Positions 1-24,438 of a stretch of DNA of 46,080 bases are shown here, one piece after another. The first letter of the stretch is position 1. The number at the start of each line of letters is the position of its first letter. Location of the stretch: the IMG/VR virus record IMGVR_UViG_3300035660_001479, positions 1-46,080 of that record; one strand, given 5' to 3'. The notes below the pieces were generated by a model. That model searched no databases. It was not told the origin of the DNA and was given only the letters and a program-made list of their open reading frames with translations. The position numbers and the translations under genes were made by a program. The stretch comes from a virus.

Positions 1-585
1 GAGTTCAACCTGCTGGATGCGCGATGCCGCATCGCCCTGGGCAGCGGTTTCGGGCGGCGCTGGCCGGGGCTGAATCAGAGCTTCACCGGCGTGCTGATGG
101 TCGGCTACCACGCGATGGAAGGCACGCCCGACGGGATTCTGGCGCATAGCTACAGCCCCTCGGCCTTCCGGTGGGTGCGGGTCAACGGCCTGGAGATGGG
201 GGAGATCGCCCTCGATGCGGCAGTAGCGGGGGCCTTCGGCGTGCCGCTGATCTTCGTCTCCAGCGACGAAGCCGGGTGCACCGAGGCCGGGCGGTGCGTC
301 CCCTGGGCGGAGACGGTGGCCACCAAGCAGGGCGTGGGGTGCAACGCGGCCTTCAGCAAGCACCCGGCGCGAGCCGTGGAGGAAATCTACCAGGGCGTCT
401 GCCGGGCTGTCGCCCGAATCAGCGGGATGAAACCCTTTGTGTTGCCCGGCCCCGCGGTCGTGGAGATACGTTTCAAGCACGTCCTCCAGGCCCTTAACGC
501 CCGCCTCCGCCGCCCCGGCTGGCGCCTTTCCGGCCCGCTGACAATCCGCAGGGAACTGGCCAGCCTGGCCGAGTGGTGCTGCTGA
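1..585 (+). CDS. D-aminopeptidase, DppA (M55) family, C-terminal part
   Basis: The frame is open from the first base, so the 5' end lies outside the window. The visible 194 residues match the second half of DppA-type zinc D-aminopeptidases, decameric enzymes that release N-terminal D-amino acids from peptides. Family landmarks include the GYHA motif followed by EGTPDGILAHSYS, then the VNG..MGEIALDAAVAG stretch, the GVPLIFVSSD strand, and a VATKQGVG segment near the end. GYHA supplies a metal-ligand histidine in characterised members. The zinc site residues of the N-terminal half cannot be seen. The assignment rests on motif memory, not a search. Confidence 0.8.
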   Translation, partial: EFNLLDARCRIALGSGFGRRWPGLNQSFTGVLMVGYHAMEGTPDGILAHSYSPSAFRWVRVNGLEMGEIALDAAVAGAFGVPLIFVSSDEAGCTEAGRCVPWAETVATKQGVGCNAAFSKHPARAVEEIYQGVCRAVARISGMKPFVLPGPAVVEIRFKHVLQALNARLRRPGWRLSGPLTIRRELASLAEWCC

Positions 586-761
586 GGTCCGCCTTCCATG
601 TCAGCATCTCCACGGTCCGGCGCCACGTCCGCCGCTGGCGGTCCCACAAGCACAGCAGGATTGTCTTTGTCTCCTTCGTCGCGACGGCATCCTAGAGGCC
701 GAAACACTTCAGGCCCCCAAGCAGCCGGCCCGGTGGCGGGCGTGTGCGAGTGGGAGGCCGG

Positions 762-890
762 CTACTTCTTTTCGCCGATGACACACGGCTTGGCCTTGTA
801 CTCGAACGGACCGGAGATCAGGACGGTTGCAGTAAAGGGACCCTTGACGTTCTTGGGCTCTCCCCATGAGAGCGCACACGTGCTGCCTCA
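762..890 (-). other. In-frame extension after TGA: possible Sec/readthrough or nonsense mutation
   Basis: Reading on after the TGA at 890-888 in the same frame gives 41 more codons to a TAG at 764-762. They include GSTCALSWGEP, then VKGPFTATVLISGPFEY and a lysine-rich end. The composition and codon use look like genuine protein, continuing the SMEYG that precedes the stop. A six-base-pair hairpin (GCTCTC, loop ATGGG, GAGAGC) lies 14 bases after the TGA, about where a bacterial SECIS would be. However, its loop lacks a G in the first two positions, which the usual SECIS rule requires. A simple nonsense mutation is the main alternative. Confidence 0.55.
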
Positions 891-2141
891 CCCATACTCC
901 ATGCTGAACTTCTTGTCGTAGCTGCCGTCACTGTTGATGATGCGGACCTGCGGCGCGGCAGCGCGCTGCCCGTTGCGAAGGAGCGAGATCCTCTCGCCCA
1001 GACTGCCCTTCAATTCCTGAGTGAGCTGCCACTGGCCTCCGTAGTTTTGTGCCCGGACCAGGGACTCAATCGGGCCCCCGGCGCCAAGGGCGGTTTCCTG
1101 TCCTTCCGTCACCTTGACGAGATCCCGATGGTCAGGAGCCTGTGAGGAAAGGCCCAGAAGCCGCCACTTGAGGCCCTTGTCATCGGTCTTTGTCTTGTTC
1201 CACCGGACCAGTCCATATTCCCCGGTGGGAACGGCGAACAGGCCATCCTTGGGCCGGCGATCGAACATGCCCTGCTTGCCCGAGAGTGTGATGTCATCCA
1301 CGTCCGCGGCCACGCGGACGGTGCCAGTCGGTACCTCTCCGGCAGGGGCGAATTCGACGAACGCCCCGTCGGGGGAGATGTCTAACTGGTAGAGTTTACC
1401 ATCGACCTCAACGTGCTGGCCGACGCGCCGGGTGGTTCGGTCGGACTCCGGGTTGTCGAAGGACCTGTCGCCCCTTGGCGCCAGGCGAATCCTGTCCGCC
1501 GTCCACCACTCCGACGAGCTGTCGTTGAACGCCCCATTGCAGTTGTCGTCGATGAGCGTGCACCAAAGCTCACGTCCGTCGAGGGTGACCGGGCCTTCGT
1601 ACCAGCAGGCCAACTCAAAGACGAGGCCCCTCCCGTACGGGTAGTCGATAAACCGCACCTCCATATGGTAGGCCCTCGGACCTGTCTTCCAGGGCAGGAC
1701 CACCTTGACCGGTATGAACTTGGAGACGGCGTACTCCGGAGGATACCCCTCAGGCTGCTTCTCCGCTTTGATGGGCTGTTCGTCGGCCAGGCTGCCGTCA
1801 AAATCCGAGTCGATGTAGAGGAGGTCGTACGGCCCGCCCTTTCGGGAGCAATCCAGCGCCAGCCAAGCCCCGCGGGCGTTCCCGTCGGGGTGCTTGGCCT
1901 CGCCAAGAGACGCCTTCCAGAGGCAAAACAGGGGTTTGTCCGTGTTGAACTTGGGCAGCTCCAGATTCCCAGGCGCTTGGTCCCGAATCTTCCCGACGCA
2001 CCGCCCATGCCCGCCGATTACGGGATAGGTCTGGGCCGCCATGCGATACTGAAGGTGCTGTTGCTGCTGCGCTGAGGCGAGATCCGCTAAAGCGACCACG
2101 ACCGTTAGAAGGGCCAAACAGGAGCACGTTCTAGTTCCCAT
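888..2141 (-). CDS. Secreted protein of unknown function, stops at an in-frame TGA
   Basis: A 417-residue protein with a clear signal peptide (hydrophobic LALLTVVVALADLASA ending in an AxA-like cleavage site), so probably periplasmic or exported. The start at 2141 is supported by AGGGAG seven bases upstream. The rest is beta-rich with repeated short motifs such as DSDFDGSLADE and DDNCNGAFND (residues about 130 and 200), which look like Asp/Asn-rich calcium or dockerin-like turns. I associate this kind of protein with planctomycetes but do not know a function. The frame ends in TGA at 888-890, yet the next 41 codons in the same frame read as good protein (separate entry). No operon partner: the neighbour at 1-585 converges on it. 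Confidence 0.75.
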   Translation of the reverse strand: MGTRTCSCLALLTVVVALADLASAQQQQHLQYRMAAQTYPVIGGHGRCVGKIRDQAPGNLELPKFNTDKPLFCLWKASLGEAKHPDGNARGAWLALDCSRKGGPYDLLYIDSDFDGSLADEQPIKAEKQPEGYPPEYAVSKFIPVKVVLPWKTGPRAYHMEVRFIDYPYGRGLVFELACWYEGPVTLDGRELWCTLIDDNCNGAFNDSSSEWWTADRIRLAPRGDRSFDNPESDRTTRRVGQHVEVDGKLYQLDISPDGAFVEFAPAGEVPTGTVRVAADVDDITLSGKQGMFDRRPKDGLFAVPTGEYGLVRWNKTKTDDKGLKWRLLGLSSQAPDHRDLVKVTEGQETALGAGGPIESLVRAQNYGGQWQLTQELKGSLGERISLLRNGQRAAAPQVRIINSDGSYDKKFSMEYG

Positions 2142-2622
2142 GGCCTGACTCCCTATGTGACGCCTACGAGAATGATACGTCCGCGGCTCCTGATGCGCCC
2201 AGCGGTTTTCTGTCAGGCGTGTTGGCGTTTCCCATGCTCTTCCGACTGAATCGCCAGCGGCGGGAGAGCACTACGCCCGCCAGAGTTATCAAGGCCGGCG
2301 TTGCGATACTATGGCCTGGCCCGGTCTGTTTGCGGTGCCGGCCCGGGAAGGAAGGCGGAGTTCTTCACGCATACCGCATCCACAGGACCGCCGAAGTTCG
2401 ATAATCAGGCGTATCGGCAACGCGGCTTATTGGGCGCTGCATCCGCGTTTTGGTTGCGGCACAGCTTTTCAAGCTGTGCGCAGGTTCCCAAGCGTTCATC
2501 CCGATGGGGCTTGCACGGGTTCGAAAACCTGTGCCACCCCAAGAGCCACGAAAACATTAATGCGCCCCATAGAGCCTATCCCCTCCGTGTCCTGCCCGTC
2601 TGTGTGGTAGATTGTTGTCGTT
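2142..2622. other. Intergenic spacer with divergent promoters expected
   Basis: This is the divergent gap between the secreted protein (-) and asparagine synthase (+). I see no convincing gene; short open frames here have repeat-like translations. A pair of REP-like hairpins occupies 2459-2533. No clear sigma-70 promoter could be picked out for either gene. Confidence 0.5.
2459..2533. repeat. REP-like pair of hairpins
   Basis: A perfect 9-bp inverted repeat (GCACAGCTT, three-base loop TTC, AAGCTGTGC) at 2459-2479 is followed by a second imperfect hairpin at 2514-2533 (CACGGGTT / AACCTGTG with one G-T pair). The translated form of the first hairpin (TAFQAV) is a familiar spurious peptide in annotations of planctomycete and related genomes. 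I therefore take it as a host-wide dispersed repeat. Only one copy is in this window. Confidence 0.6.
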
Positions 2623-4551
2623 ATGTGCGGGATTTGTGGAATCGTGGATTGGGAACGACCGGAGGTGGATCGCGCCGTGCTCGAGCGGATGCGCGACGTG
2701 ATGATCACTCGCGGCCCCGATGACGCCGGCCTGCACATCGAGCCGCACGTGGGACTGGGCCACCGGCGGTTGAGCATCATCGACCTGTCGGCCGCCGGGC
2801 GTCAGCCGATGGCCAACGAGGACCGGACCGTCTGGATCGTCTTCAACGGCGAGATATACAACTTCCTGGAGCTGCGCGACGAGCTGGCGCATGCCGGCCA
2901 CGCCTTCGGCTCGCGGACCGACGCGGAGGTCCTGGTCCACGGCTATGAGGAGTGGGGGCTGGCGGGCCTGGTCGAGCGGATACTGGGAATGTTCGCGCTG
3001 GCGATATGGGACCGCCGGGCCCGGCGGCTTCACCTGGTGCGCGATCACCTGGGCAAGAAGCCGGTATTCTACAACCTAGTCGGCGGGCGGGTCGTCTTCG
3101 CCAGCGACATCAAGGCAATTTGGATCGAATCGAACGCCCTCGGCGGCAGCGGCAAGCTGGAAATCGACGAGCGAGCCATTGACGAGTTCCTCTACTATGC
3201 CGCCATCTCGCAGAATCGGACGATCTGGCGCGGCGTGCACAAGCTGCCGCCGGCGCACGTGGCCAGTTTTCACGAAGGCGGCGTCGAGCTTCGGCGGTAC
3301 TGGTCGCCGGACTATACCCGCAAGGCTGAGCGAAGCGTGAGCCAATGGCTTGAGGGGATGGACTTCCACCTCCGCCGCGCAGTAAGGCGACGACTCATCG
3401 CCGACGTGCCCCTGGGAGGCTTCCTGTCGGGCGGCGTGGACAGCTCGACTGTCTGCGCCCTGATGGCCGCCGAGGGCAAGGACAAGCCGCGGACGTTCTC
3501 GGTCGGCTTTGAGGCGTCGCTGCGGTACGACGAGCGGAAGTACTCGCGCATGGTCGCGGAGCATATCGGCTCTGTTCACACCGAGCTTGTCCCGCGACCC
3601 GACGTTGCGCCGATACTGTCGAGCATCGTATGGCACTGCGGCGAACCGTTCGGCGATTCGTCAATGATCCCTACGTACCTGATCGCCCGCGAGGCCCGCA
3701 GGCACGTGACGGTGGTGCTTACGGGCGACGGCGGCGACGAGACGTTCGCCGGGTACAGCCGGCACCTGCGGGCCAGCCGCGACAGGCGATACGCCGCACT
3801 CACGCCACTTGTGCGCAAAGGCCTTGTGCCGCTGCTGGCCCGGGTCGTGCGGGCGATGGCGCCGACGACCCTCTTTGCGCGGAACATTGACATGTCGGCC
3901 AAGTACCTTGCCGGGCACTGGGCGTCGGTCGCGACTGACACGACGTGGTTCGACGGGCTGCGGGACCGACTTTACAGCGGGGGTTTCAAGCGCCGCCTGG
4001 GGGGTTTCCATCCGCTGCGTGCACAGCGCGAGTTCCTGATGTCCCTTGGCGGGCCGACGAACGTTGACAGGGCGATTGAGTACCTAATGCTAACCACGCT
4101 GCCCAATGACTACCTGGTCAAGGTCGACGTCGCCACCATGGCGCACTCCCTTGAGGCGCGATCTCCGCTGCTTGACAAGGAGCTTATCGAGTTCGCCGCG
4201 ACTATCCCCTCAGAGGTCCTCACCCAGGGCAACCAGGCCAAGGCGCTGCTCAAGCGATACGCATCCGGCCTCGTGCCAAGCGAGGTCATCTATCGCAAGA
4301 AGCAGGGGTTTGCCGTGCCGATACGTCACTGGTTCCGACAGCAGTGGCGCGAGCCGCTGAGACGGATACTGCTGTCCGAGCAGTGTCTGGGGCGCGGGTA
4401 TTTCGAACGGTCCTTCGTAAAAAAGGTGGTGGACGAGCATACGGACGGCGGGCGCAACCACGCCCCGCGACTGTGGACGCTGCTGGTGCTGGAACTGTGG
4501 CACCGGCTGTTCGTCGACGGGACCCTCAGCAGCGGCGATCCGGTCCTCTAG
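2623..4551 (+). CDS. asnB: Asparagine synthase (glutamine-hydrolysing)
   Basis: Makes asparagine from aspartate, ATP and glutamine-derived ammonia in the cytoplasm. The 642-residue length is typical. The start is fixed because the N-terminal Cys after processing (MCGICGI) is the glutaminase nucleophile. The class II amidotransferase domain covers roughly residues 1-210, with RGPD at 30-33 and NGEIYN near 76-81. The synthetase domain carries the PP-loop SGGVDSS at 269-275, followed by TGDGGDE and later SLEARSPLLD. Members of this subgroup often sit in exopolysaccharide clusters and may amidate sugars or peptides rather than make free asparagine, but nothing next to it shows this. No obvious Shine-Dalgarno sequence is visible. 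Confidence 0.93.
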   Translation: MCGICGIVDWERPEVDRAVLERMRDVMITRGPDDAGLHIEPHVGLGHRRLSIIDLSAAGRQPMANEDRTVWIVFNGEIYNFLELRDELAHAGHAFGSRTDAEVLVHGYEEWGLAGLVERILGMFALAIWDRRARRLHLVRDHLGKKPVFYNLVGGRVVFASDIKAIWIESNALGGSGKLEIDERAIDEFLYYAAISQNRTIWRGVHKLPPAHVASFHEGGVELRRYWSPDYTRKAERSVSQWLEGMDFHLRRAVRRRLIADVPLGGFLSGGVDSSTVCALMAAEGKDKPRTFSVGFEASLRYDERKYSRMVAEHIGSVHTELVPRPDVAPILSSIVWHCGEPFGDSSMIPTYLIAREARRHVTVVLTGDGGDETFAGYSRHLRASRDRRYAALTPLVRKGLVPLLARVVRAMAPTTLFARNIDMSAKYLAGHWASVATDTTWFDGLRDRLYSGGFKRRLGGFHPLRAQREFLMSLGGPTNVDRAIEYLMLTTLPNDYLVKVDVATMAHSLEARSPLLDKELIEFAATIPSEVLTQGNQAKALLKRYASGLVPSEVIYRKKQGFAVPIRHWFRQQWREPLRRILLSEQCLGRGYFERSFVKKVVDEHTDGGRNHAPRLWTLLVLELWHRLFVDGTLSSGDPVL

Positions 4552-7661: not shown

Positions 7662-9728
7662 ATGTCAAAAAGACGAAAAACCAATGGCGCCGGCGAGGCC
7701 CTTGACACGTCGCATCAAGGCCAGGCCGCGCCGGCTCGCCGACAGCAGGAATGCGACGAGATCTTTGCCGAGTACGATAAGCACCCGCCCGGCGATCGCC
7801 CGAAACCCGCGGCCAGGGCGCACCTGGTCATGGTGCCCATTGCCTCCATCGCCGCCGGGGGCAACGTTCGGGCCAAGCCCGATGAACCGTTCCTCGTCGG
7901 GCTCCAGACCTCGATCAGCGAGCTGGGGATGCTCGAGCCGATCATCCTGCGGAAGATGCCCGATGGGCCGTTCCGCGTGGTGGCCGGGTTCCAGCGCCTG
8001 GAGGCGGCTCGCCGGGCGGGCGAGGAGATGATCGAGGCGAAGCTCTATTCCGGTGCGGGGATCGACGACGCCTGGGAGGCTGCGGCGCGCCTGGCCGAAA
8101 ACGTCCAGCGTCGGGATCTCTCCCACATGGAGCTGGCGGGGATCTTCGGGGCGGCGGTCAAGGCCGGCATGGCGCCGGCCCAGATCGCCGCGGCGGCCAA
8201 CGTCAGCGACGACATGGTCCGCCGTCATCTGTCGCTCCTGCGGCTGACGGGGCCGGTGGCGGAGCTGGCTGAATCCGGCAGACTGCCGGTTCAGCACGCC
8301 GAGATCATCGCCCGCGTGGGTGATACGGCGAAACAGATCGAGCTGGCAGAGCATTGCCTGCGGATGGAGTGGTCGCCCGGAAAGAAGAAATGGACCGAGC
8401 AGTCCTGGCGGCCGCTGGGTGTCGCGCACGAGGACCCGGTGGATTATGTCGCGCCCCTGGAGGAACTACGGGCGGACGTGGCGCGGGCGATGCGCGGCCT
8501 GGCCGCATGCGGGTGGCTGAGAATCGAGCGCGAAAGCGCCCGGACCGACGGGATACAGATAGCGTCCGCGGGAAAGCCGCCCTGCGAGGGTTGCCCGGAC
8601 AACACGGCCACCCACGCCGGCGAGCCGGCCCTTTTTGCGGGGATCCACCCGCGAGGGAGCGACAAGCGCGGATTCTGCTCCAACCCCGGCTGCTACGAGG
8701 CGAAGACTGCCGCCTGGGAAAAGTTCCGCCAACGACGTAAGGCCGCGGAGGAGAAGCGGCTCAAAAGCAAGATCGCCCAGGCCCGAAAGGCGGGTGCGGA
8801 GATCTGCCAGGAATGCGGCGCGGCCGCGGAACTGGTCAAGACCCGCGATGGGCGGGAACTGTGCGGGAAATGCCGCGCCAAGGCGGAGCATCCCCATAGC
8901 CGGCGCGGGGAGAGCTGGGAGACGCGGGAAGAGCGGGTGGCGGCGATCAAGAGGAAGTTCCCCTGGGAGCCAGAGCAGCGGTTCGCCCTGGGGACGTACA
9001 AATGGGCCGGGACGGTCAGCGAGGCGATCGGCGGGGCGATCTCCGCCGGGACCATCAACGACGATCCCGACGTCCCCGAGGTGCTCCTGGCCCTGAAGTT
9101 GCGGCCGCTGACGCGGCAGGACTGGTTTGAGCCGCGCGAACTGGCGGGGATGCCCACGCCGATGCAGATAGGCGCTGGCAAGCACTTCAGCGGTGCTGAT
9201 CTCGCGAAGATCTGGAAAAAACTTGGGCGGCTCGATCCGGATGACCGGCCCTCGATCCATTACGACGGTGAGGCCCGCAATGTGCCGCTGCCCCAGGACG
9301 CGCTGGAGGGGATTGCGTTGCTGGAGCGTCTGGCGAGGGCGTGGCAGGTCTGGCCGAGACTGGCCCCCAAGCCGCGGGAGGAGGATTTCCGGCAGCCCGC
9401 GGAGAAGAAGCCCGCGACTCCCATCGGGAATGGGAAGGGCAAACCTGACGCCGCCGGACGCCGCGCGTGTCTGCTGTGCGGATGCACAGAGGACGCCGCC
9501 TGCCCCGGGGGATGCTCCTGGTTCGATCCGCAAAAGACGATCTGCAATCGCTGCGCCGACCTCATCCGCGGCGGCCAACGCCCCGTGGCCGAGCCGCTGA
9601 TCGCCAAGGCGCCCCTGTGGCTCCTCGAGCATATCGTCACCACCGGGAAGCTCCATGGGGACTGGCGCCGGAGCCGGATATCGCAGCGGATCCAGAAGGT
9701 CCTGAAAGCCCCGCCGGAGGCGCACTAA
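7662..9728 (+). CDS. ParB/KorB-like DNA-binding protein with C-terminal zinc fingers
   Basis: 688 residues. A ParB N-terminal domain lies at about 53-130 (VPIASIAAGGNVR, LQTSISELGMLEPIILRK, VVAGFQRLEAARRAG). It is followed by a helix-turn-helix at about 148-195 (MAPAQIAAAANVSDDMVRRH). Later parts carry several zinc clusters: CEGCP.., CQECG..CGKC, and a final CLLCGCTEDAACPGGCSW..CNRC block common in phage and plasmid proteins. Family knowledge suggests site-specific DNA binding, possibly with CTPase activity. No ParA partner is present, so plasmid partition is doubtful; a regulatory or DNA-organising role is as likely. A prophage palindrome lies in its first codons, in frame, so the true start might be further in. 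Confidence 0.75.
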   Translation: MSKRRKTNGAGEALDTSHQGQAAPARRQQECDEIFAEYDKHPPGDRPKPAARAHLVMVPIASIAAGGNVRAKPDEPFLVGLQTSISELGMLEPIILRKMPDGPFRVVAGFQRLEAARRAGEEMIEAKLYSGAGIDDAWEAAARLAENVQRRDLSHMELAGIFGAAVKAGMAPAQIAAAANVSDDMVRRHLSLLRLTGPVAELAESGRLPVQHAEIIARVGDTAKQIELAEHCLRMEWSPGKKKWTEQSWRPLGVAHEDPVDYVAPLEELRADVARAMRGLAACGWLRIERESARTDGIQIASAGKPPCEGCPDNTATHAGEPALFAGIHPRGSDKRGFCSNPGCYEAKTAAWEKFRQRRKAAEEKRLKSKIAQARKAGAEICQECGAAAELVKTRDGRELCGKCRAKAEHPHSRRGESWETREERVAAIKRKFPWEPEQRFALGTYKWAGTVSEAIGGAISAGTINDDPDVPEVLLALKLRPLTRQDWFEPRELAGMPTPMQIGAGKHFSGADLAKIWKKLGRLDPDDRPSIHYDGEARNVPLPQDALEGIALLERLARAWQVWPRLAPKPREEDFRQPAEKKPATPIGNGKGKPDAAGRRACLLCGCTEDAACPGGCSWFDPQKTICNRCADLIRGGQRPVAEPLIAKAPLWLLEHIVTTGKLHGDWRRSRISQRIQKVLKAPPEAH
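7698..7722 (+). repeat. Prophage palindrome, copy 2 (in frame)
   Basis: GCCCTTGA, nine bases, TCAAGGCC (one arm mismatch), then AGGCC. It lies within the ParB-like gene near its start and encodes ALDTSHQGQA without breaking the frame. Confidence 0.75.
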
Positions 9729-12352: not shown

Positions 12353-13255
12353 ATGAGCCACGGCGGGACCCGCGAGTGGAGCGAGACGAGCGTCAACTGC
12401 TGCCTGGGCTGCGCCCACAGCTGCGTCTATTGCTACGCCCGCGAGATCGCGATGCGGTTCGGCGGGCTGAAGCGTGGGATAGACTGGCAGATGGAACGCC
12501 CCATGAACCTGGAAAAGGTCCGGTGCGAGGAACGGTTCGCCCGCCGGTATCGCGGCGTGGTGATGTTTCCCACCGCCCACGACGTCACGCCGGGCAACAG
12601 GGACGCCTGCCTGGAGGCGCTCCGATGCCTCCTGGCGGCGGGAAACCGTGTCCTCCTGGTCACCAAGCCGCGTCTGGAGATCATGCCACGGATCGTGGCG
12701 GCCCACGCCGCGGCCTTGCGGGAGCAGTTGCTATTGGGCGCGGATCCGCCGTATGGGCGCTTCGAGGTCCGCTGCTCCATCACGTGCATCGACGACAGAG
12801 TTCGTCGGCTCTGGGAACCCGGGGCGCCGAGCGTCGAGGAACGGATTGACTGCATGCGGTACCTGCGGGAAAGCAGCGTGCGCACCAGTCTGTCCATCGA
12901 GCCGTGCCTCCAGCCGGAGCGGGTCGAGGACTTGATCGCGGCCGTTGGGCGATACGTCAGCGAGACAATCTGGATCGGGATGTGCCGCAACCTGGGCCGG
13001 CGGATCGCCTGGGCGTTCAAGCCCCGCGGTGGCCTGAGCCTCGAGGAACGGCTTGAGCTGCGGAAGGCCGCCGATTGGCTGGAATCGCAGCAGACCGACG
13101 AGAAGGTCCTTGATCTTTATCGCCGCGTGGCGGCCCATCCCCAGGTGCGGTGGAAGGATTCCATCCGCGAGGTGGTGGAACTGTGCGGGCTGAACGCGGT
13201 CGGCAAGGACGGCCAAGATGACGGGGAGCAGAGCGGCGACGATGACGGGCAGTGA
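12353..13255 (+). CDS. Radical SAM protein
   Basis: 300 residues. The cluster-binding motif C20-AHS-C24-VY-C27 (CxxxCxxC) is preceded by NCCLGC, so the protein should bind a 4Fe-4S cluster and cleave S-adenosylmethionine. Layout resembles the SplB-like/DUF5131-like group found in phages: VMFPTAHDVTP, then LLVTKPRLEIMPRI, RCSITCIDD and SLSIEPCLQP, matching barrel strands of that fold. The substrate is unknown; DNA or nucleotide chemistry is usual for phage members. It starts 7 bases after the previous stop and overlaps the next gene by 38 bases. The acidic low-complexity tail may be unstructured. Confidence 0.8.
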   Translation: MSHGGTREWSETSVNCCLGCAHSCVYCYAREIAMRFGGLKRGIDWQMERPMNLEKVRCEERFARRYRGVVMFPTAHDVTPGNRDACLEALRCLLAAGNRVLLVTKPRLEIMPRIVAAHAAALREQLLLGADPPYGRFEVRCSITCIDDRVRRLWEPGAPSVEERIDCMRYLRESSVRTSLSIEPCLQPERVEDLIAAVGRYVSETIWIGMCRNLGRRIAWAFKPRGGLSLEERLELRKAADWLESQQTDEKVLDLYRRVAAHPQVRWKDSIREVVELCGLNAVGKDGQDDGEQSGDDDGQ

Positions 13256-14984: not shown

Positions 14985-15505
14985 CAAGGAATCGCCCTGT
15001 CCCGGCACGATCGATACGATCGTTGGCCCGCCTGGTGGGCAAGGCGGAATCCACGGTGCGCAAATGGATTGCGCGCCGCGACTGGATGTTCGCGCTCGAG
15101 CCGCCATGGGACGTCGCCAAGGTCCGGGCCTGGGCGGAGATTCATGTTCATCCCGACCCGGCGGCGGCGTACCGCAAACGGATGGCGGCCGCTGAAATGG
15201 GAAGCGGGGAATTCGGGCGGATGGAGCCGCTGACGAAGGCGCGGTTCCAGGCGACGCTGGAGCGCGCGCTGCTCATCCGACAGCGGCGGCTGGTCGAGGC
15301 CGGCCAGCTCCACAACGTCGAGGAGTGCCGGCAGCGACGGCTGCGCCAGGTTCACGAGGTGAAGAGCCGGCTTGTGGATCTGCCCAGGGCGATGGCCAAT
15401 GCCCTGGCCGGGCAGGATGCGGAAACAATCGAGCGGGTTTTGATGGAGCAAGTGACGGCAATGCTCCAGGAGTTGGCGGCGGATGGCGGCAAGGGCACGA
15501 CATAA
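14978..15505 (+). CDS. Terminase small subunit, Nu1-like
   Basis: 175 residues starting at GTG 14978, chosen because GGGAAGGA lies seven bases upstream; the open frame extends further but with poor sequence. The N-terminal helix-turn-helix (SIRSLARLVGKAESTVRKWI followed by RRDWMF) matches the winged-helix DNA-recognition domain of Nu1-type packaging proteins. The middle and C-terminus are helical, as expected for the part that holds the large subunit. It directly precedes and overlaps the large subunit gene. It would recognise the phage cos/pac site, which I could not locate. Confidence 0.7.
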   Translation: MVTRNRPVPARSIRSLARLVGKAESTVRKWIARRDWMFALEPPWDVAKVRAWAEIHVHPDPAAAYRKRMAAAEMGSGEFGRMEPLTKARFQATLERALLIRQRRLVEAGQLHNVEECRQRRLRQVHEVKSRLVDLPRAMANALAGQDAETIERVLMEQVTAMLQELAADGGKGTT

Positions 15506-17702
15506 GGGTGTTGCCGGGGCGACCGCGATGGCCGAGCCGGTCTGGGACGAGGCGGAACGGGCGGCCTGGGCGCCGCCGGCGCCCATCCTGCCGAGTGGAT
15601 GGGCGGAGCGGCACCGCCGCCTGCATCGGGGCCGGTTCAAAGGCCCGTGGAGAAACGCGAACGCGCCGTACCTTCGCGGCATCATGGACATCCCGACGCG
15701 GCCGGGTGTGGTCCAGGCCAACCTTGAAAAGGCCGGACAGATCGGTGGCAGCGAGGCGATGCGAACGCTGACAGGTTACTGGGCGCACGTTGACCCCGCG
15801 CCGATGGCGCTGACGCTGCCTAACCAGCGGAAGGGCCGCTCGATCATGAAAAGTGACGTGCGTCCGCTCTTCCGCCGGACCGCCGTGCTGCGGGAACTGA
15901 TCGGTCACCAGACGGACGCGCTCCTGGAGTCGATCAGCCTGGTCAACGGATTCTCCCTCGATCTGATGTGGTCGGGATCGGCAACCAGCATGGCGGCCAA
16001 CCCGTACCAGCGATGCATCAATGACGAGGTGGACAAATTCGAGCCATGGACCGGGGAGGAATCCGACGCGGTGGCGGCCACCGAGGGCAGATTGACGGCG
16101 TACGAGGAGCGCCGATGTCAGGTCAACGTGTCCACGCCTACCACGACTGCGGGCAAGATCCATCAGCTGATGCAGCAGTCCACGGTCAGACTCGAGTGGC
16201 AGGTCCCCTGCCCGCACTGCGGGAGGTTCCAGGCGTTGCGATGGGCGGGGCTGAAGTGGATGGACCTCCAGGCGGCCCAGGTTCATCTGGCGGCGGCCGA
16301 GGCGGCCGCGGCGGGGGGCAAGACGGGCTACGCGGTCGGCTGGGATGAGAACAGGCGATGCTGGAAGGAGGCGGTGGATCCTGCGGCGGGATCGGGCCTC
16401 ACATTCCCTGACCCCATCGAACTGGGTCGCCACGTCGCTTGGCTGAGACGGATGATCGAACGTCTGGGAGCTGCGGAGGACCGCTCCGGCCTGGCGGATG
16501 TGCTGGCGGCCGAGAGGGAGGCGGCGGTCTGGTACGAATGCCGCCACTGCCGGGGCAGGATCTTCCCCAGACAGAAGGCCGCAATGATCCGGGCGGGCCG
16601 ATGGAGCGGGCCGGATGGTTACGTGACGGACTTCTGGGGCGCCCGGCACGAAGACGCGGAAGGAGTCCTGCGATGGCCGTGGGAGACCCGCATCGGGTTC
16701 CAGATATCCGCCCTGTGCTGCCTGTGGGTGCACTGGAGCCGGCTGGCGGGAGAGTGGCTGCGATCGCAGGGCGACCCGGCGGCGCTCTTTTTCTTCACGA
16801 CCTTCCGGCTCGCGGAGGCGTTTGAGTTCCGCACACGCCGGATACCGGAGACGATGCTTGCGGCCAAGACGGCCAGGGCCGGGTTGGAGGAGGGGATCGT
16901 CCCCCGCTGGGCGTGGCTGCTCCTGGCCGCCATCGACACGCAGGCGGATGGATTCTACGCGGTGCTGCGGGCCTGGGGCGGCGGGATGCGATCGGCCCGC
17001 GTCTGGCATGGGAAGCTCGCGACGTTCGTGGAGCTGGACAGGTTGCTCTTCGTGCGCCAGTGGCCGGTCGAGGGCGGGGAGTTCCCGCCGATGCTGGTGG
17101 CCAAGACGCTCATCGACAGCGGCGGCACGGAGGACCGGATGCTGGAAGTGAGTCGCACGCAGCAGGTGTATCTCTACGCGATCCCCCGGCAGCCGGCGAT
17201 CGTGGCGATCAAGGGCGCGAGCCGCCCGGGGGCGGGCCTCTTCTGGCCGATGAGAAACCCGATGGCCGGCGGAGGCAAGACGGAACTGACCGATCTGAGG
17301 GCCTTGCTCGTCGATCGGCACATGGCCAACGACCTCCTGGCCGAGATGATCACGGCGGGTATCCCGTCGGAGGAACCCCGCGCCGGGGGGCCGGGGCTGG
17401 AGCAGTGGCTCCTGAACAAGCGCCAGGACGAGGAATACGAGGCGCACATGGCGGCGATGCAGCGGACGATGGACCCGCGGACGCGGGCGGAGATATGGAC
17501 CCCGCGGGCCACGGGGACGCCGCATGACTACCGCGACTGCGAGGCCTACCAGGTCGTGGCCGCGTACCTGACCAACGTGCACCTGCTGCCGGAGGAGAGC
17601 GAGGTCCTGGAATGGAAACGTCAGCAGAAAACGATCGGCGAAACCAGGCCGCAGACCGGCCCGTCCCCCGGCGGGGATCCGTGGGCGGTGCGGCCGCTTT
17701 GA
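15483..17702 (+). CDS. Terminase large subunit, GpA family
   Basis: 739 residues, the usual size for lambda gpA-type packaging motors. It pumps DNA into the procapsid and cuts it. The N-terminal ATPase has the P-loop-like KAGQIGGSE at 83-91. Two CxxC pairs (CPHCG near 241, CRHC near 345) form the zinc ribbon seen in this family. The C-terminal nuclease region includes LLAAIDTQADG and HDYRDCEAYQ, which carry likely metal-binding Asp residues. AGGAG precedes the ATG at 15483; a second ATG at 15528 is possible. A very long open frame on the opposite strand is a shadow. Confidence 0.9.
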   Translation: MAARARHKGVAGATAMAEPVWDEAERAAWAPPAPILPSGWAERHRRLHRGRFKGPWRNANAPYLRGIMDIPTRPGVVQANLEKAGQIGGSEAMRTLTGYWAHVDPAPMALTLPNQRKGRSIMKSDVRPLFRRTAVLRELIGHQTDALLESISLVNGFSLDLMWSGSATSMAANPYQRCINDEVDKFEPWTGEESDAVAATEGRLTAYEERRCQVNVSTPTTTAGKIHQLMQQSTVRLEWQVPCPHCGRFQALRWAGLKWMDLQAAQVHLAAAEAAAAGGKTGYAVGWDENRRCWKEAVDPAAGSGLTFPDPIELGRHVAWLRRMIERLGAAEDRSGLADVLAAEREAAVWYECRHCRGRIFPRQKAAMIRAGRWSGPDGYVTDFWGARHEDAEGVLRWPWETRIGFQISALCCLWVHWSRLAGEWLRSQGDPAALFFFTTFRLAEAFEFRTRRIPETMLAAKTARAGLEEGIVPRWAWLLLAAIDTQADGFYAVLRAWGGGMRSARVWHGKLATFVELDRLLFVRQWPVEGGEFPPMLVAKTLIDSGGTEDRMLEVSRTQQVYLYAIPRQPAIVAIKGASRPGAGLFWPMRNPMAGGGKTELTDLRALLVDRHMANDLLAEMITAGIPSEEPRAGGPGLEQWLLNKRQDEEYEAHMAAMQRTMDPRTRAEIWTPRATGTPHDYRDCEAYQVVAAYLTNVHLLPEESEVLEWKRQQKTIGETRPQTGPSPGGDPWAVRPL

Positions 17703-17714
17703 GGAGTTTTTGCG

Positions 17715-17969
17715 ATGACGGATGAAAAACGCACGGATGCGGCGGGGGAGACCCCGCGGGGCAAACGGCTCACGCAGGCGGCGCTCAATGACGCGCTCGC
17801 GCGAAAGCGGTGCTCCCACTGCGCCACCCGCGGGGCCTGGAAGATATACAGTCAGGATGGAAAGGGCGGCGCGGTGCGGTATGTCAAGTGCCTGGGCTGC
17901 GGACGCACCGACAAGGTCCCCGTGATCGCCACCGAGACTGATGATGAAACCCAGACGCGCCAAACGTGA
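17715..17969 (+). CDS. Small zinc-ribbon protein
   Basis: 84 residues with a compact zinc ribbon: CSHC at about 33-36 and CLGC near 59-62. GGAGTTTTTGCG precedes the start. It overlaps the ParB-fold gene that follows by 29 bases, so it probably belongs to the same translational unit as the ParB and ATPase-GNAT proteins. Function unknown; nucleic-acid contact is typical for such ribbons. Confidence 0.65.
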   Translation: MTDEKRTDAAGETPRGKRLTQAALNDALARKRCSHCATRGAWKIYSQDGKGGAVRYVKCLGCGRTDKVPVIATETDDETQTRQT

Positions 17970-18564
17970 CCCGTCGCGGATCAGTGCGGGCCTGGCGAGG
18001 CTGGCCGTGCCGATCAGGAGCCTCCGGGGCGACGACGGCAACGTCCGCCGCCATCCGGAGCGGAACATCGAGGCGATCAAGCACAGCCTGGCGGCCTTCG
18101 GGCAGCAGGCGCCGGTCGTCTTCGTGGTGCGCGGCGGCCGGCGGGTCGTCATCAAAGGCAACGGCGTCCTTGCCGCGGCCCGCGAACTGGGCTGGAAACA
18201 CCTGGCCGCGATCGGAACCCGCCTGCTGGACAACGATGCCAAGGCGTTCGCCATCGCCGATAACCGCACGACCGATCTCAGCGAGTTCGACGAACAACTC
18301 CTGGCGGCACAGCTCCAGGACCTGGAAAAACCCGGGTATGATCTGGCAGCCGCCGGATTCAGCGAGGATGAATTGCGCGAACTACTGAACGGCGCCGGAG
18401 TAGACGCCGAACAGCAGGGCGAGAAAAATGCCCCAAAGCGCCGAGCCAAAGCGCTTTCGGAACTCTACACCGTAATCGTGGAGTGCAAAAACGAGCGCGA
18501 TCAACTGGCGTTCTATCGCCGGATGCAGAAAGAGGGCCGAAAATGCAAACTGTACGTGCTGTAG
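17941..18564 (+). CDS. ParB/Srx-fold protein of the DNA-modification type
   Basis: 207 residues. The ParB-like fold covers about 20-130: VPIRSLRGDDGNVRRHPERN, then IKHSLAAFGQQAPVV, VIKGNGVLAAARELGW, then AIADNRTTDLSEFDE. The GNG..AA..LGW box and the ADNRT segment are those of ParB domains usually attached to or next to DNA methyltransferases. Instead of a methylase, the C-terminus is a short domain (YTVIVECKNERDQLAFYRRM) ending at residue 207. The gene overlaps the downstream ABC ATPase-GNAT gene by 22 bases, so the two are very probably partners. Confidence 0.75.
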   Translation: MMKPRRAKRDPSRISAGLARLAVPIRSLRGDDGNVRRHPERNIEAIKHSLAAFGQQAPVVFVVRGGRRVVIKGNGVLAAARELGWKHLAAIGTRLLDNDAKAFAIADNRTTDLSEFDEQLLAAQLQDLEKPGYDLAAAGFSEDELRELLNGAGVDAEQQGEKNAPKRRAKALSELYTVIVECKNERDQLAFYRRMQKEGRKCKLYVL

Positions 18565-19649
18565 CCGCGGTTCAAATCCGCGACTCCCCCCGCGTGCAGT
18601 ACATCGGCGCGATGTTCGATCTCGGCGTGCCACGACGAGTCGAGCGGGTTTTTGAGGCCAAACTTCCGGACCCGAGCGAGGAATGGCGGATCGGGGCGAT
18701 AGTTGGCCCAAGCGCCAGCGGCAAGAGCACGCTGGCCCGAGCGGCGTATCCCGGCGGGTACTGGCGCGATCAAACATGGCCGGCGCGGCAGGCCATTGTG
18801 GACTGTTTCGGCCGGCGCGACGTGAAGGTCGTGACGAGCATGCTGACGGCGGTGGGATTCTCCTCGCCGCCGGCGTGGATCAGACCCTTCTCAGCGCTCA
18901 GCACGGGTGAGCAATTCCGGGCGAACCTGGCCCGCGCGCTTCTGACGGGCGGCGATCTGGTCGTCTATGACGAGTTCACCTCAGTCGTGGATCGCACGGT
19001 CGCCCGCGTCGGGAGCGCCGCGGTGGCAAAAAGCATCCGCAAAGCCATCATCGGATGTCGGTTTGTCGCCATCTCCTGTCATTACGACATGCTGCCGTGG
19101 CTCCAGCCCGATTGGGTGTTCGACACGTCCGATTTCACGCTCTCCCGGAGGCGCCTTCGGCGACCGAAAATGCGCCTGGAGATATGCCGCTGTCTGCCCG
19201 CCGCATGGGGCCTGTTTAAGGTCCATCACTATCTGAGCGCGGAGATGTGCTCCCGCGCTGCGCGGTGTTTTCTGGCGATCCACCACGGGCAGCCCATCGC
19301 GTTCGCCTCCGTCATGCCCTGCCCGGGGGTGAGCCGCGTGAGCCGCGTGAGTCGGATCGTGGTACTCCCGGACTGGCAGGGGATCGGGATCGGGCGCGCC
19401 TTCTGTGCCGGGCTGGGGTCGCTGTACGCGGAGCAGGGCAGACGACTCTGTCTACGGACTAGTCATCAGATGATGATCCGCTGCCTGGCGGGCGACCCGA
19501 GCTGGCAAATAGCCGCCGTGTACCCGCGCGGTTCACCTCCGGCCCGGGGGGAGCTGCAGGGCCTCCACCGCGTGAGCCGGCGCGCGGGGGTCAGCTTTTT
19601 TTGGGCCGGGGATTCGCGGAGCGGTAATAGCGGGGCGGGCAGGACTTAG
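18543..19649 (+). CDS. ABC ATPase-GNAT (Mom-like) fusion protein
   Basis: 368 residues. The ABC-type ATPase has Walker A GPSASGKST (55-63), signature LSTGEQ (119-124), Walker B DLVVYDEF (138-145), D-loop SVVD and an H-loop His180. The second half is an acyltransferase: HHYLSAEM near 228, and the acetyl-CoA loop LPDWQGIGIGRA (275-286). I recall this two-domain arrangement as a conserved phage family, related to Mu Mom, the GNAT-fold enzyme that modifies adenine in DNA. AGAGGG before ATG 18543 decides the start. Base modification as the role is inference; antitoxin or protein acylation are alternatives. It ends the inserted unit before a promoter at 19686. Confidence 0.8.
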   Translation: MQTVRAVAAVQIRDSPRVQYIGAMFDLGVPRRVERVFEAKLPDPSEEWRIGAIVGPSASGKSTLARAAYPGGYWRDQTWPARQAIVDCFGRRDVKVVTSMLTAVGFSSPPAWIRPFSALSTGEQFRANLARALLTGGDLVVYDEFTSVVDRTVARVGSAAVAKSIRKAIIGCRFVAISCHYDMLPWLQPDWVFDTSDFTLSRRRLRRPKMRLEICRCLPAAWGLFKVHHYLSAEMCSRAARCFLAIHHGQPIAFASVMPCPGVSRVSRVSRIVVLPDWQGIGIGRAFCAGLGSLYAEQGRRLCLRTSHQMMIRCLAGDPSWQIAAVYPRGSPPARGELQGLHRVSRRAGVSFFWAGDSRSGNSGAGRT

Positions 19650-21932: not shown

Positions 21933-22041
21933 TTGGGTCGGCGGCGAGCCGCCCATCGAGGACGCGGAACTGATCGCAGATCTCATGCGAGAGGCCGGCG
22001 AGGCGATGTTGCAGGAGCGAAAATCGTTGGGTGCCACATGA
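21928..22041 (+). CDS. Very small coupled frame, non-standard start
   Basis: The frame read from ATT 21928 encodes IDWVGGEPPIEDAELIADLM followed by REAGEAMLQERK and about five more residues, acidic and protein-like. It ends in an ATGA overlap with the ASCH gene. The only ATG is at 21985, giving 18 residues; ATT 21928, after GAGAGG, would give 37. It could also be a frameshifted tail of the preceding gene. Function unknown. Confidence 0.3.
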   Translation: MDWVGGEPPIEDAELIADLMREAGEAMLQERKSLGAT

Positions 22042-22382
22042 AGGCCCTGGTGGTCCGCCAGCCCTGGGCGGCGATGATCGCCGACGGGCGAAAAACAATC
22101 GAGGTGCGCTCCTGGCGCACGTCGTTTCGAGGGGATCTCCTCATCATCGCCGCCAGATGCAACCAGGGCACCGAGCACGGCATGCCCAGGGGCGTTACCG
22201 TGGGTTTGGTGAGGCTCATGGAATGCCGGTCCATGCGCCCGGAGGATGAGCCGGCGGCGTTCGTGACCTATCAGCCCGGTCAATGGGCGTGGGTGCTCGA
22301 GTTGATCCGGACGCTGCCCCCGGTACCGATCCGGGGGATGCGCGGGGTTTTTGAGGCGAATTTCACGCCGGAAATAATTTGA
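22038..22382 (+). CDS. ASCH domain protein
   Basis: 114 residues. MKALVVRQPWAAMIADGRKT, IEVRSWRTSFRGDLLIIAA is the standard beginning of ASCH domains (beta-barrels related to PUA), including the RQPWA..I..G.K..E.R.W signature. ASCH proteins bind or hydrolyse RNA or modified nucleosides such as N4-acetylcytidine. Starts in an ATGA overlap with a tiny upstream frame. In a phage it may act on nucleotides or RNA; the specific substrate cannot be seen. Confidence 0.8.
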   Translation: MKALVVRQPWAAMIADGRKTIEVRSWRTSFRGDLLIIAARCNQGTEHGMPRGVTVGLVRLMECRSMRPEDEPAAFVTYQPGQWAWVLELIRTLPPVPIRGMRGVFEANFTPEII

Positions 22383-22450: not shown

Positions 22451-22696
22451 ATGGCCCTCACGCTCACACAGGTCGACGCGCTGCTGGATGCCGCGTACGT
22501 CGCCAGCGCCAACGACCAGCTCTCCTTCCGCACCCCCGGCGGGCACGAGGTGGTTTTTCACACGCTCCAGGCCCGCACCGCCTACATCGACTGGCTTGAG
22601 GGGAAACGCCGCGAGCTCATCGATGAAGCCGCCGCCGCCAGCGGCGACCCGGCCTCCGCGGCGCCGGTGGTGAGCTTTCAGGAGCCGTGCCCATGA
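22451..22696 (+). CDS. gpW-like head completion protein
   Basis: 81 residues, helical with a central beta hairpin (LSFRTPGGHEVVFHTL), the size and arrangement of lambda gpW, which plugs the portal after packaging. Position immediately before the portal gene, overlapping by ATGA, is the lambda order. Sequence match is by pattern only. Confidence 0.65.
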   Translation: MALTLTQVDALLDAAYVASANDQLSFRTPGGHEVVFHTLQARTAYIDWLEGKRRELIDEAAAASGDPASAAPVVSFQEPCP

Positions 22697-24438
22697 ACGC
22701 CCGGAAGGCAGCCATCGGCGCGATTGAGATCGCCGCCCGGTCGCCGGGCTGGCTGCTTTCTTCGCTGGGCGGGCTGGCCGGGAGGCTGGTGGGCGGATTT
22801 CTGTCCAGCATCTCCGGCGGATTCAGCGGCGGATACTGGGGCGCTTACCACGACGCGGCCCGCCGCGACTCCACGACCGCGGACTGGCGGGCGAGGCTCT
22901 CCAGCGCCGACGCGGCCATCGTCGAGGACCTCGACGTGATGCTCGCGCGGAGCCGCCTGGAGATCGCCAACAACGGCTATGCCGCGTCCATCCAGGGGGG
23001 CTACCGGCGGTATGTCGTCGGCGGAGGGATAACGGCACGGTCCGCGGCACGCCACCCCGAGACGGGCGAGATGCTGAAAACCTACAACGCCCAGCTCGAC
23101 GCGATCTGGGAGGAATGGTTCTGGGAGTCGGCCCTCTGCGATGGCGAGGCGACCAAGACCATGCCGGAAAAACAACAGTTGTGGATGAACGAGTTGGTCG
23201 GCGCCGGCGGGGTCTTCGTCCTGCGAAATTACCTGCCCGCCGCCGACGGCGTCGGGTTGGCGCTCCAGGAGATCGAGTACGAGCAGCGGGACACGGTGAC
23301 GAGCGAATACCAGGGGAGGGCCGTCCGCGGCGGCGTGGAAACCGACGTCTACGGTCGCCCGGTCGCCTACCACCTCTACGAGGCGGGCCACCCGCTGGAT
23401 GATCTGGGGACCAAAGCCACGCGGGTCGAGGCAAGCCGATGCTGCCACGTCTACCGCCAGGACCGCGTGCGCCAGCGGATCGGGGCGCCCTGGATGCGGC
23501 CGGTCCTGGCACGCCTGCGCCAGCTTGCGATGTACGAGGCCTATACGATGATCCAGGCGAGGACGCGGGCGGCCTATCCCGGGTTCATCAAGCAACAGGC
23601 CGGCAGCGTGCCGATGACGCCGGCGGTGGTGGCAAGGCAGTTTTCGGCGTCCCAGGCGGCGGGCGCGGCGGCGATTTCGGACGCGGGTGAGTTGCGGATC
23701 AATATCGCCCCCGGCGTGATCCCGGTCCTCAAACCGGGGCAGGAGCCGTACTTTCCGACGCCATCGGTGCCGGACTCGATGTTCCCCGCGTTTGTGCTGG
23801 ACCAACTCAAGGGCATATCGGCCGGGTGCGGACTGGACATCGCCACCGTCGCCCGCTGGTACGCCGACGGGAACTTCTCCAGCCAGCGCCAGGGGAAACT
23901 CGACATCTGGGCGGAGGTGGACTGGATACAGGACCTGCTCTTTGTCCACAAGATCATGCGGAGGGTCCGGCGGCAGGTGATCGAGATCGCGATCGCCGAG
24001 GGCCGGCTGGCGGCGACCGGGTACCGGGAATCGGACCGCTGGCGGCGGGCCTATCTGATGACCAACTGGCAGGGGCCCCCGAAACAATCGGTTGATGAGA
24101 TCAAGGACGAGGCGGCGTGGGACATGCGGTTCAAGAGCCTCCGGGCTAGCCCGATGGAGTACTGCAACGAGCGGGGCAAGGACCCGCGCGACGTGCTGAG
24201 CGAATGGCGGGAGTTCGTCGAAATGGCCCGCGACGACTACGGCCTGGGCGACCTGCTCCAACGCTATTTCGGCACTGACGTCGCCAACAGGCCGCGGGAG
24301 GGCCAGCGCCCTCCAGGCGCGCCGGGCGGGGATGACGGCGGCGATGGGGGCGGCATGAGCGGCCTCGTCGCCCGCCAGGCAGTCCTGCAATCGCTGCTGG
24401 AGGAGGACCCCCCCATTAGGAGCAGGCAATGGCCATAA
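22693..24438 (+). CDS. Portal protein, lambda family
   Basis: 581 residues from ATG 22693 (ATGA overlap; a GTG at 22687 is also in frame). Forms the dodecameric ring at the capsid vertex through which DNA passes. Family landmarks: YRRYVVGGGIT near 100, a W.EWFWESALCDGEA stretch, LWMNELVGAGGVFVLR, and LQEIEYEQRD. In the C-terminal half, IKQQAGSVPM, then YFPTPSVPDSMFPAFV, and DLIQ-type helices follow. A low-complexity Gly/Asp tail ends the protein. The long minus-strand open frame over this gene is a shadow. Confidence 0.85.
   Translation: MNARKAAIGAIEIAARSPGWLLSSLGGLAGRLVGGFLSSISGGFSGGYWGAYHDAARRDSTTADWRARLSSADAAIVEDLDVMLARSRLEIANNGYAASIQGGYRRYVVGGGITARSAARHPETGEMLKTYNAQLDAIWEEWFWESALCDGEATKTMPEKQQLWMNELVGAGGVFVLRNYLPAADGVGLALQEIEYEQRDTVTSEYQGRAVRGGVETDVYGRPVAYHLYEAGHPLDDLGTKATRVEASRCCHVYRQDRVRQRIGAPWMRPVLARLRQLAMYEAYTMIQARTRAAYPGFIKQQAGSVPMTPAVVARQFSASQAAGAAAISDAGELRINIAPGVIPVLKPGQEPYFPTPSVPDSMFPAFVLDQLKGISAGCGLDIATVARWYADGNFSSQRQGKLDIWAEVDWIQDLLFVHKIMRRVRRQVIEIAIAEGRLAATGYRESDRWRRAYLMTNWQGPPKQSVDEIKDEAAWDMRFKSLRASPMEYCNERGKDPRDVLSEWREFVEMARDDYGLGDLLQRYFGTDVANRPREGQRPPGAPGGDDGGDGGGMSGLVARQAVLQSLLEEDPPIRSRQWP

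Follow-up and report, generated by a model that had tools for sequence, protein, structure and literature searches.

An ABC ATPase-GNAT gene with a conserved ParB-type partner replaces mom in related phages and may encode a DNA acyltransferase

Analysis of the window (the whole stretch of DNA studied here, an entire IMG/VR virus record of 46,080 bp) indicated that its ABC ATPase-GNAT fusion protein is probably an ATP-gated, CoA-dependent DNA acyltransferase, and the cassette a late phage DNA-modification unit equivalent to Mu Mom and using a different acyl donor. DNA modification was taken as the best explanation because of the ParB adaptor, the late gene position and the exchange with a proven DNA modifier. 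As relayed in a paper on jumbo phages, Iyer et al. (2013) predicted that an ABC-GNAT family acylates DNA bases, naming Tenacibaculum phage pT24 (PMC7824862). Since pT24 was matched by the window protein in a tblastn search (35% identity, 81% of the query, E 3e-40), the window protein can be assigned by sequence to this Iyer-Aravind family, with the same predicted role; the published statement, as relayed there, is likewise a prediction. The initial annotation had proposed DNA modification or anti-restriction as the role of the cassette. This role, arrived at there independently, was already a published prediction and has good support from context (exchange at the mom slot, Com on the 5′ side, ParB genes common to Mom), although the three detailed arguments given for it did not hold in the form given.

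The description of three overlapping genes (zinc ribbon, ParB fold and ABC ATPase-GNAT) between terminase and head genes was confirmed: all three are present on the plus strand at 17715-19649, with the terminase large subunit gene (15483-17702) on the 5′ side and the portal gene (22687-24438) on the 3′ side (Table 1). The overlaps are 29 nt between the zinc-ribbon and ParB genes and 22 nt between the ParB and ABC ATPase-GNAT genes, and the codon-position GC of the trio is close to that of the adjoining phage genes. The ABC ATPase-GNAT gene starts at ATG 18543, where the family alignment begins, and not at GTG 18483, which is merely the first start codon in the open frame. The zinc-ribbon protein gave no family match above the cut-off. 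Its identification as Com (PF10122) was rejected, as it had no Pfam match and scored 2.3 bits against the Com profile with all filters off.

Table 1. Features of the cassette and other genes of the window, in order of position
Feature	Positions	Strand	Remarks
Peptidase M55	91-585		Near left end
Asparagine synthase	2623-4551		Near left end
Second ParB protein, large (688 aa)	7662-9728		ParB_N + HTH_ParB; 5′ of terminase genes
Radical SAM protein	12353-13255		In phage part
Zinc-ribbon protein, 84 aa	17715-17969	+	CxxC...CxxC (two CxxC pairs); first gene of overlapping trio
ParB/Srx-fold protein, methylase-associated type, with C-terminal partner domain, 207 aa	17941-18564	+	phrog_620, phrog_498
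Partner domain, about 40 aa, beta-alpha-beta, LYTVIVECKNERDQLAFYRRMQKEGRKCKLYVL	18433-18564	+	ParB C terminus; profile match E 4e-15 in window
ABC ATPase-GNAT fusion, 368 aa	18543-19649	+	phrog_11143; AlphaFold2
Walker A, GPSASGKST, residues 55-63	18705-18731	+	G55, S57, G60 and K61 invariant in 52 members
ABC signature, LSTGE (family LSxGE), residues 119-123	18897-18911	+	L119, S120 and G122 invariant
Walker B and catalytic Glu, LVVYDE, residues 139-144, then D-loop SVVD	18957-18974	+	D143, E144, S147, V148, D150 and R151 invariant
H-loop, His180	19080-19082	+	Invariant
GNAT domain, residues 205-360	19155-19622	+	Separate AlphaFold2 model, pLDDT 87; Foldseek
HY motif, GNAT N-terminal helix (H229, Y230)	19227-19232	+	Y230 invariant in 52 members; H229 in at least 90%
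Acyl-CoA pyrophosphate loop, RIVVLPDWQGIGIG, residues 271-284	19353-19394	+	Motif conservation
ASCH (PUA-like) protein	22035-22382	+	Pfam ASCH 4e-9; farther off than in relatives

The ABC ATPase-GNAT protein matched phrog_11143 over its full length (residues 11-357, E 6e-93), a family listed as 'unknown function', and in Pfam it matched ABC_tran (5e-7) and Acetyltransf_7 (5e-6). Relatives were found in 54 phage records, 252 viral contig stretches and 333 bacterial genome contig stretches, and the family spans phages of Gordonia, Streptococcus, Lactococcus, Pseudomonas, Porphyromonas, Aeromonas, Leptospira and planctomycetes. An alignment of 52 diverse members showed that the ATPase motifs, which the initial annotation had judged complete, are conserved across the family; because they are invariant or nearly so, the protein is expected to hydrolyse ATP. 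The full protein was modelled by AlphaFold2 with a mean pLDDT of 90 and a pTM of 0.85, and its ABC part (about 200 aa) resembles transporter-type nucleotide-binding domains, so that the ATPase is ABC-type by both motif and fold. The good CoA loop noted in the GNAT part likewise proved to be a family feature, the pattern PDxQGxGIG being present in 48 of 52 ABC-GNATs versus none of 86 Mom proteins.

The relation to Mom turned out to be one of position. The GNAT domain had been called Mom-like, and membership in the Mom family was rejected: PF25680 gave no match to it (Mu Mom itself scored 253 bits), and comparison with a profile built from six and then 72 Mom sequences gave an hhalign probability of 1.6-2.8%, which is not significant. 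In Porphyromonas transposable phages, however, the ABC-GNAT gene lies in the slot that follows the last tail gene and extends to the right end, and in ten related phages this slot holds ABC-GNAT (five), Mom (four) or nothing (one). In phage 008a it contains a small ORF, ABC-GNAT and a formyltransferase gene and in phage 012a it contains Mom, while the flanks of the two are 88% identical before the slot and 82% after it. Phage 010a is a close relative without ABC-GNAT. The slot states are interleaved on a tail-gene tree on which some branches are weakly supported, and 013a (Mom) does not group with the other Mom phages. A Mom and an ABC-GNAT gene occur together in Aeromonas phage PX29 (L094:1932-2816 and L096:2896-4074), showing that the two can coexist.

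The two systems also share their 5′ partners. Com is an RNA-binding activator of mom translation (PMC6483171). In Pseudomonas phage Komp_PAO1_1 a true Com gene (PF10122, E 9e-21) lies directly 5′ of a small ORF and ABC-GNAT, and Com also precedes this pair in two more Mu-like loci; the com overlap is 77 nt in this arrangement, compared with 80 nt between com and mom in Mu. A ParB gene was found directly 5′ of Mom in 87 of 153 non-redundant Mom loci, a fraction that is not a population estimate, the set having been enriched by Appa-type Mom queries with a ParB neighbour; in the first, Mu-centred set the figure was 11 of 86. The mom-slot position and the Com and ParB partners were thus observed at the level of the ABC-GNAT family, the window itself having ParB and no Com. 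Together, these three independent links of context equate the GNAT with Mom in position, while neither its sequence nor its fold is Mom-like. It shares with Mu com-mom a GNAT-fold enzyme, an equal genomic slot, Com or ParB on the 5′ side, a late phage gene and the HY motif, whereas Mom has neither an ABC domain nor a canonical CoA loop and shows no profile similarity to ABC-GNAT.

The ParB protein of the cassette matched phrog_620 (E 4e-33) and the ParB-methyltransferase family phrog_498 (E 1e-29); by tblastn it gave one match in phages, being too diverged to be useful in this way. That its domain is also fused to DNA methyltransferases counts in favour of DNA modification: in phrog_498, too, a ParB domain serves a DNA-modifying enzyme, although there a methyltransferase is fused to it and in the window the enzyme is the ABC-GNAT of the next gene. 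The initial annotation was right that a methylase partner is lacking here, but this is not unusual, since ABC-GNAT is itself the usual partner of this family. The ParB/Srx GHGR-type motif reads GNGV in the window, and its R is present in 69% of the ParB partners of ABC-GNAT; catalysis by this motif therefore appears not to be conserved.

The survey of co-occurrence proposed in the initial annotation linked two of the three genes. ParB lies directly 5′ of ABC-GNAT in 38 of 49 non-redundant loci, while the zinc ribbon had no relative in the loci searched. ParB ends in the partner domain (LYTVIVECKNE...GRKCKLYVL), which from its sequence looks like a small beta-alpha-beta fold. A profile search detected this domain on the gene directly 5′ of ABC-GNAT in 43 of the 49 loci, either fused to ParB or, in transposable phages, as a stand-alone protein of 42-58 aa, and in none of 153 non-redundant Mom loci. 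Between the 5′ gene and ABC-GNAT the overlap is exactly 22 nt at 22 loci and 4 nt at seven. Because the 5′ position and the overlap lengths are so constant, the partner-domain gene is suggested to be an obligate, co-translated partner of ABC-GNAT.

A side observation concerns tRNA genes near mom. ARAGORN found 31 tRNA genes in 329 Mom loci (185 non-redundant), 30 of them tRNA-Gly. Among the non-redundant loci, tRNA-Gly accounts for 19 of 20 tRNA genes; all of these abut mom or lie no more than 60 bp from its frame, and they have three anticodons (TCC, ACC and CCC); the lone exception lies 1.2 kb from mom. Examples are L093:3654-3728, L113:2800-2873, L160:3715-3789, L268:983-1056, L289:3149-3221, L317:1919-1992 and L338:2423-2497, with 12 more non-redundant loci. 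Ten tRNA-Gly examples all begin with GCG and end with CGCU, which gives G1-C72, C2-G71 and U73, which are bacterial glycine identity elements. The tRNA-bearing fraction is biased upward, as the Mom set was widened partly by queries from tRNA-bearing loci; the isotype purity is less exposed to this bias, although a single ancestral tRNA could be common to related loci.

The modification made by Mu com-mom is N6-carbamoylmethyl-adenine, and the Mom product bears a glycine-derived group. Because tRNA-Gly adjoins mom and the Mom product is glycine-derived, the data suggest that Mom takes glycine from glycyl-tRNA as donor. The jumbo phage paper proposes an acyl-CoA such as glycyl-CoA as the Mom donor (PMC7824862), and a literature search for glycyl-tRNA together with Mom returned nothing. 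The ABC-GNAT loci, used as controls, gave another picture: five tRNAs of mixed type, none within 600 bp, in the viral loci, and in the planctomycete loci six tRNAs, each of a different type. An aminoacyl-tRNA donor for ABC-GNAT is not indicated by such mixed-type, unlinked tRNAs. The link to tRNA-Gly belongs to Mom and not to ABC-GNAT, and since ABC-GNAT has the CoA loop that Mom lacks, the two enzymes are suggested to use different donors. An acyl carrier protein elsewhere in the phage had been put forward as a conceivable acyl donor, and this idea was dropped, as no such protein was found among about 40 ORFs scanned by Pfam or motif search. In Streptococcus phage MismyG, a tRNA annotated as Tyr lies about 100 bp 5′ of the ParB-ABC-GNAT operon (L002:3319-3399); ARAGORN could not assign it because of an odd anticodon loop.

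Two kinds of gene recur on the 3′ side. An ASCH gene lies within about 1.5 kb 3′ of ABC-GNAT in 12 of 49 loci (L002, L003, L004, L011, L015, L049, L054, L056, L060, L062, L086 and L089), versus 0 of 154 Mom loci; by this association, the ASCH protein might read or erase the modified base. A formyltransferase-domain gene, annotated as phosphoribosylglycinamide formyltransferase, lies directly 3′ of ABC-GNAT in transposable phages only (L007:5077-5694, L006:5095-5568, L079:7029-7649 and L262-L264) and possibly provides a second step of modification. Either protein might act upon what ABC-GNAT makes or read it, and neither is required.

The ASCH fold includes an N4-acetylcytidine amidohydrolase, and the ASCH genes just 3′ of ABC-GNAT are thus also compatible with an RNA acetyltransferase like TmcA/NAT10, in which the ATPase would drive the GNAT to acetylate tRNA or rRNA cytidine and so help the phage in translation or in evading defences that target tRNA. 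TmcA/NAT10 resembles ABC-GNAT in that an ATPase domain and a GNAT are fused and acetylation of a nucleic-acid amine needs ATP. With the whole model as query, Foldseek matched TmcA (2zpa, E 3.6e-7, 425 columns), one chain among the top PDB matches that aligns to both domains. However, the rmsd was 12, the domains match singly and their arrangement differs; the TmcA ATPase is a helicase and not an ABC protein, so that ABC-GNAT does not belong to the TmcA type, and TmcA acts on RNA, whereas the ParB partner and the exchange with Mom speak for DNA. Nor are tRNA genes linked to ABC-GNAT. An RNA acetyltransferase is therefore considered unlikely.

A protein acetyltransferase is also improbable. In this reading the GNAT would aid takeover by acetylating RNA polymerase, the ribosome or a defence enzyme of the host, and the ABC part would serve as a sensor of DNA or nucleotides. 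Modification of RNA polymerase by phage GNATs has precedents, cited in the jumbo phage paper (PMC7824862). The nearest solved folds are generic GNATs: with the GNAT domain alone, Foldseek found canonical GNATs (E 1.5e-8), the top PDB matches including RimI-type enzymes, and among viral proteins other ABC-GNATs matched first. The closer kinship to protein or ribosome acetyltransferases that the initial annotation had named as counting against its reading is therefore found in part, by fold. But the fold is a generic canonical GNAT fold, which does not outweigh the context, and a search of PDB sequences with the GNAT profile gave weak generic GNATs alone (E ≥ 0.007), so that the likeness to RimI is one of fold and not of sequence family. 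Moreover, action on a protein leaves the fixed ParB partner, the exchange with Mom and the control by Com unexplained.

Modification at the nucleotide level, where a free (deoxy)nucleotide or a precursor would be acylated in the manner of pre-replicative base replacement, is very unlikely: the formyltransferase gene of the transposable phages could be a biosynthetic step, but no nucleotide-pool or polymerase genes accompany ABC-GNAT, the ParB and ABC architecture suggests polymeric DNA, and the late-gene location fits post-replicative action. A DNA-handling machine, in which ParB and an SMC-like ABC ATPase work in packaging or segregation with a regulatory GNAT, is equally hard to credit, for although the cassette adjoins the terminase gene in the window and in many relatives, the protein has no coiled coil or hinge, its ABC part of about 200 aa is of the transporter type, and in transposable phages the gene is placed at the far end, in the mom slot, and is absent from 010a.

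Against DNA modification itself, it must be said that neighbours sharing one slot can be unrelated cargo, that ParB-like genes are common in phages, that the GNAT does not resemble Mom in profile comparison and folds like generic protein or small-molecule GNATs, and that TmcA, the one chain aligning to both domains among the top PDB matches, is an RNA acetyltransferase. If DNA modification is nevertheless the function, ParB would bind DNA and its C-terminal domain of about 40 aa would recruit or activate the ABC ATPase-GNAT. An ABC dimer may then, by ATP binding and hydrolysis, clamp, open or distort duplex DNA and so expose an exocyclic amino group of a base, onto which the GNAT would move an acyl group from acyl-CoA shortly before packaging; the modified DNA would be packaged and the genome protected from host restriction. 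The chances are about even that such an ATP-driven, ParB-guided, acyl-CoA-dependent enzyme installs an undescribed acyl base, as a module swapped with Mom between close phages, followed in some phages by formyltransferase processing or ASCH reading.

In a search of bacterial genomes, the best 80 of the 333 matching stretches were all from Planctomycetota, from several orders and including isolates of Botrimarina and Bythopirellula. Among these 80 loci (L178-L257), ParB was found in 73, the partner domain in 75 and a portal homologue in 43, the commonest distance being about 3.3 kb 3′ of ABC-GNAT; in the Botrimarina locus (L179) the gene order is terminase small, terminase large, portal and protease. 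Because these best matches are all from Planctomycetota, with ParB, partner domain and portal, the window is most likely a planctomycete prophage, and the loci would represent a very widespread prophage lineage or, possibly, a gene-transfer-agent-like element. The peptidase M55 and asparagine synthase genes (91-4551) were rejected as parts of the system, as they resemble, and may well be, the bacterial flank of a prophage.

In the literature other than Iyer et al. (2013) itself, no statement of the mom-slot exchange, the Com-controlled version or the ParB tail domain was found, nor any DNA product of a family member. The slot exchange and the common Com and ParB partners make the published prediction directly testable in cultured phages. 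If it is true, the family would add to the known hypermodified bases and couple DNA modification to ATP, which would bear on phage escape from restriction and on tools that discriminate modified DNA.
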